Positions 31,583-37,753 of a DNA stretch of 64,000 nt are shown here, in pieces. Origin of the DNA: Armatimonadota bacterium (GTDB lineage Bacteria > Armatimonadota > UBA5829 > DTJY01); NCBI GenBank assembly GCA_029907255.1, contig JARYMF010000006.1, forward strand, positions 1-64,000. The letters are read 5' to 3'. The stretch's first letter is position 1; every line of letters starts with the position of its first letter. Position numbers and translations under genes: made by a program. The notes beneath the pieces are model-generated. The model had not been told where the DNA came from. It was given only the letters and a program-made list of their open reading frames with translations, and did not search any database.

Positions 31583-31658
31583 GGGCCCGTAGCTCAGTCG
31601 GCAGAGCAACGCCCTTTTAAGGCGTGGGTCGTGCGTTCGATTCGCACCGGGCTCACCA
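31583..31658 (+). tRNA. tRNA-Lys (anticodon TTT)
   Basis: The 76-nt gene folds as a cloverleaf. The acceptor strands are GGGCCCG and CGGGCTC. The D-arm lies in AGCTCAGTCGGCAGAGCA, and the anticodon stem ACGCC/GGCGT encloses loop CTTTTAA with anticodon TTT at 31616-31618. The T-arm is CGTGCGTTCGATTCGCACC, written here as GTGCG and CGCAC around TTCGATT. The 3' CCA is encoded (31656-31658). It has its own promoter and no adjacent tRNA. Confidence 0.96.
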
Positions 31659-31766: not shown

Positions 31767-31796
31767 TTGTATATACCGACAATTCCATAATATAAT
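31767..31796 (+). promoter_or_regulatory. Promoter of the YedE-TusA-DUF3343 cluster
   Basis: TTGTAT (31767-31772) and a perfect TATAAT (31791-31796) are 18 nt apart. Transcription would start near 31803, leaving a leader of about 220 nt before the YedE-like gene. Confidence 0.65.
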
Positions 31797-31825
31797 AGTG
31801 CCAAATTAAATCCCGCAAACCCATC

Positions 31826-32019
31826 CGGAAGGAGGTCGGAAACCGTGCCAGCATATAGAAAGACTTGATATGCCTCAACAACGGCGCACGTGTTGCGCTC
31901 AAAAATTGGATTACAGAATAATGCTGCCGTTTCCGGCCGAATACCCTTCCTCTTAAGTTAAACAACCTCTCGCTCCTTTCGTGCCGGTTGTGGCAGCCTA
32001 AACCTAATTTGAAAGGAGC
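31826..32019 (+). promoter_or_regulatory. Candidate riboswitch or leader-peptide attenuator of the YedE cluster
   Basis: A closing helix P1 pairs 31834-31843 with 31929-31938 (10 bp, one G-U). Inside it are P2 (31851-31856 with 31868-31873, 6 bp) and P3 (31883-31888 with 31894-31899, 6 bp with one G-U), making a three-way junction. Downstream, GCTCCTTTC (31972-31980) pairs perfectly with GAAAGGAGC (32011-32019), hiding the ribosome-binding site of the YedE-like gene. AAGGAG at 31829-31834 copies that site and could bind CTCCTT at 31973-31978, freeing the real one. The same AAGGAGGT also stands 8 nt before a seven-codon ORF (GTG at 31845, stop at 31868, reading MPAYRKT), so a leader-peptide mechanism is equally possible. 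Confidence 0.55.
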
Positions 32020-32025
32020 CAAGCT

Positions 32026-33159
32026 ATGCTTTCTTTTCGTCGGTTTCTAAGTTCTAGCTCAGGACCAATCATCACAGGTATTGCCGTTGGGGTACTCGCT
32101 CCAGTATTGGTAAGAAGTGGCAACCCTGGCAATATGGGAATTTGTGTTGCATGCTTCACTCGCGACATTGCCGGTTCTCTTGGGCTCCATCGAGCATCGG
32201 TGGTTCAGTATATCCGCCCGGAAATAATAGGTTTCATTCTCGGGTCATTGGTCGCCGCTTTAGTCTTCCGAGAATTCAAACCACGGACCGGCTCTTCACC
32301 CATTGTGCGTTTTTTTCTCGGAGCGTTTTCAATGATAGGGGCGCTTATGTTCCTTGGATGCCCATGGCGCGCATACCTAAGGCTTTCCGGCGGCGATTGG
32401 AATGCAATTTTTGGAATTGCAGGGCTATTTGCTGGGGTACTGCTCGGCACAGCCTTCGTGAAATCTGGATTCAACCTTGGAAGGAGCAAACCAGCGCCAG
32501 TAGCCTTGGGATGGATGATGCCGCTGGTTGCAATTGGATTGCTTGTACTTTTAATTACCGAACCTAAGCTGGGCTTCGACCCCAGTGGGAAACCGACTGG
32601 CCCCGTGTTTTTCTCCGCGGAAGGACCCGGGAGCATGCATGCGCCCATTCTCATCTCTCTTGGGGTAGGAGCTCTTATCGGACTACTTGCCCAGCGGTCG
32701 AGATTCTGTACGGTTGGTGCACTACGAGACCTTGTTCTTCTTAGGGATGCACATCTCTTTAGTGGAATATTGGCACTTATTGCCACTGCGTTCATAACCA
32801 ATGTAGTGCTTGGGCAGTTCAAGCCAGGGTTCGCCCAGCAACCAGTAGCGCATACAAATCAACTTTTCAACTTTGGCGGGATGCTCCTAGCAGGATTGTC
32901 GTTCACACTTGCAGGTGGGTGCCCAGGACGCCAAATTTTCCTCTCCGGGGAGGGCGATGGTGATGCTGGCATTTTTGTACTCGGGATGTTGGTGGGAGCT
33001 GGCTTTGCACATAACTTCTCACTCGCCAGCTCGCCAAAAGGACCAGGTGCATTTGGACTTTGGGCGCTCGTCATCGGACTAGTATTTTGCGTTGTTATTG
33101 GCCTGACGATGCGCGAAGTAAAAAATCCAAGGAGGATCTTTAATGAGCGACTTGATTAA
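32026..33159 (+). CDS. yedE: YedE-family (YeeE/YedE) putative selenium/sulfur transporter
   Basis: The 377-residue polytopic protein has about nine or ten membrane helices. It also has the conserved Cys motifs of the YeeE/YedE family: NMGICVACFTRDIAG near residue 37, MFLGCPWRAYLRLSGGDW near residue 110, QRSRFCTVGALRDL near residue 225 and LAGGCPGRQIFLSGEGD near residue 300. The last motif and the neighbours fit the selenium-metabolism YedE subfamily. Relatives such as YeeE import thiosulfate. Selenium or sulfur import is therefore likely, but the ion is not settled. The next gene (TusA-like) starts 17 nt inside this one. The ribosome-binding site is enclosed in a hairpin, implying translational control. 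Confidence 0.85.
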   Translation: MLSFRRFLSSSSGPIITGIAVGVLAPVLVRSGNPGNMGICVACFTRDIAGSLGLHRASVVQYIRPEIIGFILGSLVAALVFREFKPRTGSSPIVRFFLGAFSMIGALMFLGCPWRAYLRLSGGDWNAIFGIAGLFAGVLLGTAFVKSGFNLGRSKPAPVALGWMMPLVAIGLLVLLITEPKLGFDPSGKPTGPVFFSAEGPGSMHAPILISLGVGALIGLLAQRSRFCTVGALRDLVLLRDAHLFSGILALIATAFITNVVLGQFKPGFAQQPVAHTNQLFNFGGMLLAGLSFTLAGGCPGRQIFLSGEGDGDAGIFVLGMLVGAGFAHNFSLASSPKGPGAFGLWALVIGLVFCVVIGLTMREVKNPRRIFNERLD

Positions 33160-33364
33160 ACTTGATGCACGCGGGCTATCTTGTCCGATGCCTGCAATGA
33201 TGGCAAAAAAGGCAATCAAGGGTCGTGAACGTGGAAAAATAGAGATAATAGTTGACTCATACGCTGCACGCGATAACGTGGAGCGAATCGCCAAAAGTTC
33301 TGGATGGAATGTTATCATCGAAGACATTGGCTCTGGCGAATTCCGATTAACCATATCAAAATGA
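33143..33364 (+). CDS. TusA/SirA-family sulfur (selenium) carrier protein
   Basis: The 73-residue protein is a complete TusA-like domain: LIKLDARGLSCPMPAMMAKKAI with the active Cys14 of the CPxP motif, VDSYAARDNVERIAKSSGW and the terminal EFRLTISK. TusA proteins carry persulfide (or selenide) on this Cys. Overlap with the YedE-like gene by 17 nt and an AGGAGG upstream support coupled translation. In the selenium-linked YedF proteins a TusA domain is fused to a second domain; here it stands alone. Confidence 0.9.
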   Translation: MSDLIKLDARGLSCPMPAMMAKKAIKGRERGKIEIIVDSYAARDNVERIAKSSGWNVIIEDIGSGEFRLTISK

Positions 33365-33404: not shown

Positions 33405-33635
33405 TTGGAAAAATACGGGGTGGTACTCTTTCACAGTCAGTCCTCAGCATTCCGCGCCGAGAAGATTCTCCTTAAGGCTGGGATTGAGTGCCGCCTCATT
33501 CCCATACCACGCAGTTTATCAAGCGACTGCGGTGTGGCAGCACGATTCGAATGGGCACGAGTTGCTGATGTCGAACGAGCGCTCAATGCTGCGGATGTTG
33601 AAATCCAAGGGATTCATCCAATGCCCTCACGGTAA
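33405..33635 (+). CDS. DUF3343 putative Se/S carrier-like protein
   Basis: The 76-residue protein fits DUF3343 from end to end: GVVLFHSQSSAFRAEKILLKAGIECRLIPIPRSLSSDCGVAARFEW, then a helix (VADVERALNAADVEIQGI). The single Cys in SDCGVA is the conserved residue proposed to carry selenium or sulfur. Members occur beside YedE and TusA proteins. The start is TTG with GGAG upstream. No selD, selA or other selenium-insertion gene is in the window, so whether the cluster serves selenium or sulfur cannot be told here. Confidence 0.85.
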   Translation: MEKYGVVLFHSQSSAFRAEKILLKAGIECRLIPIPRSLSSDCGVAARFEWARVADVERALNAADVEIQGIHPMPSR

Positions 33636-36439: not shown

Positions 36440-37060
36440 TTATTTTATTATTCTCGCTCGGTTAGGTGGCCAAAATATGGCTATTGATTTCCCCAGAACT
36501 CGTTTCAAATCTAGCAAGCCTTCTTTTACGCTATCATTACTGTTGTTTCGATTGTCCCCCATCACGAAGAGCTTGCCGCGGGGCACACGAATCGGGTCCA
36601 TTTCGTAGTTCATTGGCTCTTTGATATATGGTTCGTCTACAGGTTTTCCATTTCGTAACAGTTTTCCATTTTTAACGGCTATTAGGTCACCAGGCACACC
36701 AACAAGTCTCTTTATAAATTCCCGCTCGGTCCCGTCAGCAGTCCAACTTTTGGGTGCTCTAAATACAATTATTTCTCCATCCCTTGGCGGCCGCAAGCGA
36801 TAGACAAGTTTATTTAGAAGTATGTGGTCGCCTTCGCGAAGCGTTGGCTCCATGGAAGCCGACCGAATGGTGTAAACCTGAATAAAAAACGGACGGATAA
36901 TGAGGAAAACAAGGATTATTGCTACGAGGGCAGATTCAACTACTTCGGCGGCCGATTTACCAATGGGAGTCTTATAACGTGCAAGCCACAGCCGCGCGAT
37001 GAAAAGTATGACAATTGCCGCGACAACATATTCAATTCTGACATTTGCAAGCCAGTCCAT
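36440..37060 (-). CDS. lepB: Signal peptidase I, tandem copy 2
   Basis: The 206-residue enzyme has two N-terminal membrane helices (about residues 9-26 and 43-62). Box B is TIRSASMEPTLREGDHIL with the nucleophilic Ser. Next comes RDGEIIVFRAP. Box D is FIKRLVGVPGDLIAV with the general-base Lys, and box E is VMGDNRNNSNDS. Box E continues VKEGLLDL instead of the common SRxWG, so it has lost the last part of that motif. It follows a near-identical-length copy, and the two arose by tandem duplication. AGGAG lies 10 nt before the ATG. Confidence 0.92.
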   Translation of the reverse strand: MDWLANVRIEYVVAAIVILFIARLWLARYKTPIGKSAAEVVESALVAIILVFLIIRPFFIQVYTIRSASMEPTLREGDHILLNKLVYRLRPPRDGEIIVFRAPKSWTADGTEREFIKRLVGVPGDLIAVKNGKLLRNGKPVDEPYIKEPMNYEMDPIRVPRGKLFVMGDNRNNSNDSVKEGLLDLKRVLGKSIAIFWPPNRARIIK

Positions 37061-37132: not shown

Positions 37133-37753
37133 TCAGCGGGGAATTCCGATTCGGCTGGGCGGCCAGAAGATTACTAACGCCTTGCCGAGAACACGGTTTC
37201 GATCGAGTGGGCCCCACCTATGGCTGTCGTTGCTGTCATTGCGGTTGTCACCCATAACGAAAAGCATTCCTTTCGGAACCTTAAACGGCGGCATCTCATA
37301 ATCCATTGGCTCTTTGATGTATGGCTCGCGGACGGGTTTGCCATTCCTATAAAGTATACCATTGCGAACCTCTATTACGTCACCTGGCAAGCCAATGAGC
37401 CGTTTAATGTAGTCTCGCTCCACTCCATCGGTAGTAGCATTCTCCGGCGCCTTGAAAACGATTATATCCCCCCGCTGAGGTTCCTTGAATCGATAAATGA
37501 ATTTATTGACCAAAATGTGGTCATGCACCAAAAGGGTAGGCTCCATCGATCCCGATGGAATGAAAAACGCCTGGATTATGAATGGCCGGATAATCAAGAA
37601 GACGAGTACGATGGCAATTAGCACCGACTCGACTATTTCAGCGGCCGACTTTGCCACCACGGTTTTGTAGCGGCCAAGCCATAGGCGAAGTATAAGTAAA
37701 ACAACGGATATGATTATGACATATTCGATTTTTAGGTTAGCCAGCCACTCCAT
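37133..37753 (-). CDS. lepB: Signal peptidase I, tandem copy 1
   Basis: The 206-residue enzyme has two membrane helices and complete motifs: AFFIPSGSMEPTLLVHDHILVNK with the nucleophilic Ser, RGDIIVFKAP, YIKRLIGLPGDVIEV with the Lys base, and VMGDNRNDSNDSHRWGPL. It matches copy 2 along its length (same start MxWLANxxIEYV). The ATG overlaps the rplS stop by 1 nt (TAATG). Signal peptidase genes downstream of rplS are common in Firmicutes-type operons. Confidence 0.94.
   Translation of the reverse strand: MEWLANLKIEYVIIISVVLLILRLWLGRYKTVVAKSAAEIVESVLIAIVLVFLIIRPFIIQAFFIPSGSMEPTLLVHDHILVNKFIYRFKEPQRGDIIVFKAPENATTDGVERDYIKRLIGLPGDVIEVRNGILYRNGKPVREPYIKEPMDYEMPPFKVPKGMLFVMGDNRNDSNDSHRWGPLDRNRVLGKALVIFWPPSRIGIPR

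Follow-up and report, generated by a model that had tools for sequence, protein, structure and literature searches.

The window, a 64,000-nt stretch of the genome of an Armatimonadota bacterium, contains yedE, encoding a putative selenium transporter, at 32026..33159 (TIGR04112, 492 bits), followed by genes for a TusA-family protein related to the N-terminus of YedF at 33143..33364 (PF01206) and for a DUF3343/Se_S_carrier protein at 33405..33635 (PF11823). All three lie on the plus strand, as do the leader features described below, and the profile matches agree with the gene order YedE-TusA-DUF3343 that an earlier, sequence-only reading had named downstream of a presumed regulatory leader. The leader transcript possibly starts near 31803, judging from a TATAAT at 31791..31796 that could serve as a −10 box; this is a weak sequence reading, identical in the same-genus genome G001, and a consensus promoter scan returned nothing, the putative TATAAT at 31791-31796 included. 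A tRNA gene (31583-31655, Rfam 68.5 bits) ends about 150 nt before the probable leader start, and elsewhere in the window two adjacent, similar ORFs on the minus strand (36440-37060 and 37133-37753) resemble type I signal peptidases of the LepB kind. A repeat or mobile element was considered as the identity of the leader and rejected, as the leader is single-copy in its own genome.

The leader carries a short upstream ORF (uORF) at 31845..31868, GTG-CCA-GCA-TAT-AGA-AAG-ACT-TGA, in which seven codons (VPAYRKT) precede a UGA at 31866..31868. Its Shine-Dalgarno (SD) sequence, AAGGAGG, lies at 31829..31835 and corresponds to the consensus GAAAGGAGGTGA in related leaders. The second copy of the SD that had been taken for a decoy (AAGGAG, 31829-31834) is indeed there, but its role is that of the uORF start site. 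For comparison, as much as 500 nt was taken from in front of each of about 80 yedE relatives, and a common layout recurs in this set: an SD, an ATG or GTG, 6-10 codons, a UGA, and a hairpin whose loop is 17-25 nt farther on. This layout stands 141-185 nt (in one case 265) before yedE in 28 leaders from Chloroflexota and Armatimonadota, and it is also found in Synergistota. Levilinea saccharolytica and Acetomicrobium hydrogeniformans are two named strains with the leader in their genomes. The leader of G001 is nearly identical, its uORF and hairpin core almost unchanged, and the same-class G015/L014 leader has an identical 16-nt hairpin, roughly as far from yedE. In an alignment of related leaders the uORFs differ in length by whole codons; many of the peptides in Chloroflexota and Armatimonadota end in RRT or RKT, and the terminal codon of the curated uORFs is UGA in 37/37 leaders, with no other stop. 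The translatable leader ORF with a sensor codon that is expected of a ribosome-mediated attenuator is thus present here as an SD, a start codon, a conserved uORF and the UGA. In four leaders (L030, L163, L164, and L166) the second of two nearby UGAs was chosen as the sensor, which is a judgment call; these have UGA-NNN-UGA in frame, with the second UGA at the usual distance of about 20 nt from the SECIS loop, and the tandem arrangement could possibly make for a sharper switch.

We propose that the invariant UGA is a selenocysteine (Sec) codon. The host genome encodes SelB (404 bits) and tRNA-Sec (69 bits), and from these genes the uORF UGA is probably readable as Sec in this cell. The hairpin GGCGCA-CGUGU-UGCGCU follows at 31883..31899. 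The model of the bacterial SECIS given in a 2026 review has an apical loop of 3-9 nt, an upper stem of 4-16 bp, at least one G at loop positions 1 and 2, a UGA-to-loop distance of 16-37 nt, and an MFE of −7.5 kcal/mol or lower (PMC13188914). The window hairpin combines a 5-nt loop with a 6-bp stem, has a G in its CGUGU loop (at position 2 in 25/25 aligned leaders), lies with its loop 20 nt from the UGA (17-25 nt in the Chloroflexota and Armatimonadota leaders), and folds, as a 23-nt segment, with an MFE of −8.0 kcal/mol, all within the model. Compensatory changes, looked for across relatives in this stem (the P3 of the sequence-only reading), were found on both sides at 6/6 pairs in 25 leaders; 96.7% of the alignment cells are paired, and the covariation is 0.629, compared with 0.301 for shuffled alignments. 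By published criteria, applied to the sequence, the leader hairpin is a bacterial SECIS. A second such element in the host supplies a close parallel: SelD (L109, G000:C4:193321-194247) has one in-frame UGA, in HGGG-U-ACK, and is itself a selenoprotein, and the 5′ stem of its SECIS, GGCGCA-GGUUC-UGCGCC, is identical to that of the leader. The SelD SECIS of Longilinea (L015) has the loop CGUGC, which also occurs as the loop of several leaders, and a UGA is present in the best SelD match of nearly all genomes tested.

A good SECIS hairpin could act without any decoding of the UGA, as a site at which SelB-GTP-Sec-tRNA represses in cis with no readthrough. There is a precedent of sorts in E. coli, where a SECIS-like element in the selAB 5′ region reportedly regulates by binding SelB (Thanbichler and Bock, 2002), and the window leader resembles it in placing a SECIS in the leader of a selenium gene. 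The window leader has, in addition, a uORF that would serve as the sensor and alternative folds of the anti-SD strand, neither of which is known for the E. coli element. We regard repression of this sort as quite improbable, because it leaves unexplained the conserved SD and start codon, the invariant in-frame UGA, the open frame beyond it, and the alternating strands described below.

The frame past the UGA is open. In the window it runs from 31869 to 31961, with 30 sense codons before a TAA at 31959-31961. Within 22 codons of the UGA there are no stops in this frame in 28/28 leaders, versus 22 and 20 stops in the other two frames (Fisher p 4e-8); the 12 leaders found later repeat the pattern, with none in the uORF frame (12/12 open) versus 17. 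This contrast between frames suggests that the leader UGA is meant for readthrough. Most leaders stay open for 22-36 codons past the UGA, and the readthrough stop mostly falls 51-91 nt upstream of yedE. A frame of such length might encode a small selenoprotein that functions in trans, but the peptide has no visible conservation after the SECIS-encoded residues, its length varies, and Desulfobacteraceae forms end after 10 codons; we consider a functional product very improbable.

Four strands of the leader, which we call A to D, can pair in alternative ways. Strand A (31826..31855) contains the uORF SD and start codon and pairs with strand B (31921..31951) in a duplex of −32.3 kcal/mol. This duplex extends the P1 helix of the sequence-only reading (31834-31843 with 31929-31938), which is present with one G-U pair and a pair probability of 0.6-1.0. 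Strand C (31972..31998) has two partners: 31972-31981 is an anti-SD arm that forms 10 bp with 32010-32019, that is, with strand D (32010..32019), the YedE SD region hidden in C:D, and 31977-31998 forms 16 pairs with 31922-31942 of strand B. The B:C pairing had gone unnoticed before. Since both B:C and C:D need 31977-31981, they are mutually exclusive in the window. The 9-bp stem earlier placed over the YedE ribosome-binding site (31972-31980/32011-32019) proved perfect, with a probability of about 1; C:D covers the yedE SD, in support of the proposal that YedE translation is controlled through a hidden SD.

The folding of the complete leader is no better than that of shuffled sequences (z −0.95). 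The individual elements of the window do stand out, with z scores of −3.06 for the anti-SD hairpin, −2.8 for A:B and −3.4 for B:C. Over 33 leaders the duplex z scores are −2.2 for A:B, −2.65 for B:C and −2.57 for C:D, compared with +0.14 for the control pairing A:C; the corresponding values in the 12 later-found leaders are −1.8, −3.4, −3.3, and −0.1. The exclusive 1:2, 2:3, and 3:4 pairings of an attenuator thus have counterparts in A:B, B:C, and C:D, each of which exceeds shuffles, as A:C does not. In L014 the uORF and SECIS are present and B:C and C:D are weak.

The previous interpretation of these helices was a three-way junction that binds a ligand, with P1 enclosing two hairpins. P1 and P3 exist (P3 with a probability of about 0.8-0.94), and the yedE SD is sequestered as a riboswitch would have it. 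The other inner hairpin, P2 (31851-31873), is no more than a pair of complementary segments inside the uORF, with a pairing probability of about 0.04, and in G001 one of the six pairs cannot form. With P2 neither predicted nor conserved the junction falls away, and no conserved aptamer was found. Conservation follows the uORF and the SECIS, which leaves a small-molecule ligand unsupported, and Rfam holds no match. A ligand-binding riboswitch therefore seems to us extremely improbable. The guess of a selenium connection holds up, in that a leader with a SECIS and a UGA precedes selenium genes.

No transcription terminator was detected when one was sought within the leader, and attenuation is for this reason taken to be translational. 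We think it probable that the leader senses selenocysteine and acts as a translational attenuator mediated by the ribosome, the sensed quantity being most likely selenocysteyl-tRNA, through decoding of the UGA. A ribosome would initiate on the short uORF ending in UGA, and the SECIS hairpin would let SelB bring Sec-tRNA-Sec to that codon. When Sec-tRNA is scarce, termination at the UGA would keep strand A occupied and leave strand B free; B would then join C, the anti-SD strand could no longer cover the yedE SD, and the transporter would be made. When Sec-tRNA is plentiful, the UGA would be decoded, and the ribosome would traverse B and halt short of C, typically by 10-15 nt and in the window by 13 nt, after which, with B cleared, C:D would form and turn yedE off. 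With no ribosome on the leader, A:B and C:D would give a default off state.

Folding of the window RNA under ribosome constraints is consistent with this scheme. With a ribosome modeled at the UGA, B:C forms with 16 bp and C:D is absent, for every 3′ end tested; with the ribosome at the readthrough stop, C:D forms with 10 bp. Plain equilibrium accessibility of the SD differed weakly between states, and we therefore used the cost of opening the yedE SD, which in the window is 9.2 kcal/mol with no ribosome, 3.4 with a ribosome at the UGA, and 13.9 after readthrough. The means of 27 leaders are 7.1, 3.9, and 7.1 kcal/mol, respectively (UGA versus readthrough state, p 0.005), with 7/27 leaders reversed. 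Among the 12 further leaders the UGA state has no such advantage (mean 5.6 versus 4.6 kcal/mol), since in several of them part of C falls under the footprint assumed for the ribosome after readthrough, and all of these opening costs depend on an assumed 12-nt footprint. Given the seven reversed leaders, the off-pattern mean of the 12, and the assumed footprint, we infer the polarity from the modeling with less certainty than the parts of the leader themselves.

The opposite polarity would have the Se-replete readthrough ribosome open the anti-SD strand, so that YedE synthesis would require a supply of Sec, which would make sense as feed-forward or if YedE is an overflow valve. In several leaders the readthrough stop is near enough for the ribosome to invade C, and with the 12-nt footprint the SD opens more easily in the readthrough state in L027, L034, L037, L038, and L077, as well as in L148, L151, L159, L168, and L173 of the 12 further leaders. 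Between the readthrough stop and the C:D (anti-SD) helix, however, the median distance is 12 nt, mostly 8-19 nt in the clear cases; in the window (13 nt) and most leaders with a clear C:D it is about 10-15 nt, and a ribosome stopped there would abut the helix without opening it. Induction by Sec would also leave the conserved B:C pairing with no role, and we judge it unlikely.

The distribution of the leader was traced with a covariance model of its core, R1, which has a single match in the window. On 81 loci R1 gives scores of at least 28.9 bits to 31 yedE leaders, most of which had trained the model, and the next match scores 17.7. A search across the phylum for the exact 14-mer of the loop hairpin returned, within the class, three yedE leaders only, and elsewhere matches at chance level. 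On 291 Armatimonadota genomes R1 yielded four new leaders, all from members of the class that lack this YedE (L145, L146, L148, and L151, in G024, G026, G017, and G008), each with a UGA and a SECIS. All four precede a gene for a double-cubane-cluster anaerobic reductase, identified by NF040772 for the three genes tested and by sequence, as a close homologue, for the fourth. Genes of this type also occur near yedE in six deltaproteobacterial loci (L056, L061, L065, L068, L071, and L079), and together these placements suggest that the reductase is an unrecognized gene of the selenium regulon. Of 396 Anaerolineae genomes 22 were matched, once each; the new leaders there precede seven yedE genes and one YedF-like gene (TIGR03527, partial), and L173 (G472:C2:624262-624339) precedes the gene for a putative selenate ABC transporter substrate-binding protein (TIGR04553, 374 bits). 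Two R1 matches, at the start of rpmF in G240 and at a small heat-shock protein gene (L172), lack a UGA and were discarded as false. A second model, R2, was trained on Chloroflexota leaders only, with no Armatimonadota; its top match in the 64 kb is still the window leader (E 8e-4), and it also recovers the reductase and Synergistota leaders. The presence or absence of SelB does not separate yedE genes with the leader from those without, and the leader is missing from many yedE genes of SelB-bearing genomes.

In trp and his attenuators a short leader ORF with a sensor codon is followed by alternating 1:2, 2:3, and 3:4 pairings, and the position of the ribosome picks the fold; in translational attenuation of the erm and cat type the output comes through sequestration of the SD. 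The window leader shares the sensor-codon ORF, the alternating strands, and the SD-sequestration output with these systems. It differs from them in that the proposed sensor is a UGA recoded to selenocysteine with a SECIS, and in that Sec shortage would lead to termination at the UGA and not to stalling at a sense codon. The leader element agrees with the bSECIS of selenoprotein genes in the size of its loop, the length of its stem, the G in the loop, the distance from the UGA, and stability, but it comes after a 6-10 codon ORF and before genes not read as selenoproteins. With good confidence, we regard these leaders as a class of recoding-based attenuators, in which a leader ORF with a UGA and a SECIS gauges the level of charged Sec-tRNA and governs a selenium regulon of YedE, a selenate ABC transporter, a YedF-like protein, and the double-cubane-cluster reductase. 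The class would extend over at least Chloroflexota, Armatimonadota, and Synergistota, and Desulfobacterota would have a divergent form of it. If this is correct, it would be the first natural attenuator known to us in which sensing relies on a stop codon and the 21st amino acid.

No family of Rfam release 15 matches the window leader or the related YedE loci scanned, in keeping with the earlier impression that the leader is undescribed. A term search of selenium papers from 2015, 2022, and 2026 gave no mention of such a leader, nor did searches limited largely to openly accessible papers turn up a description; the leader is likely new to the literature. A sensor that resembles a stop codon in an untranslated leader is a reason for annotation to overlook such features. 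Little is understood of the way in which bacteria sense selenium and regulate its uptake, and the 2015 comparative study described the selenium regulatory network as not fully understood (PMC5322559). The leader offers a concrete RNA mechanism, one that would read the end product directly as charged Sec-tRNA at the UGA. In several phyla it would connect the supply of selenocysteine with YedE, which is annotated as a selenium transporter, and it adds the double-cubane-cluster reductase to the candidate genes of the selenium regulon.

Other arrangements are seen upstream of yedE in Deltaproteobacteria. In Desulfobacteraceae (L048, L071, and L082) a uORF, MYQFFGFT-UGA, and a hairpin lie about 200 nt before yedE, and the frame past the UGA ends at a TAG after 10 codons, within the hairpin; these uORFs are either a divergent variant or part of another mechanism. 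Deltaproteobacterial yedE genes with no uORF (L031, L036, L044-L047, L051, L062-L064, L070, and L074) share, about 100 nt before the gene, a block that resembles a promoter, TTTGACATAT or a variant of it, which perhaps reflects control by a transcription factor.
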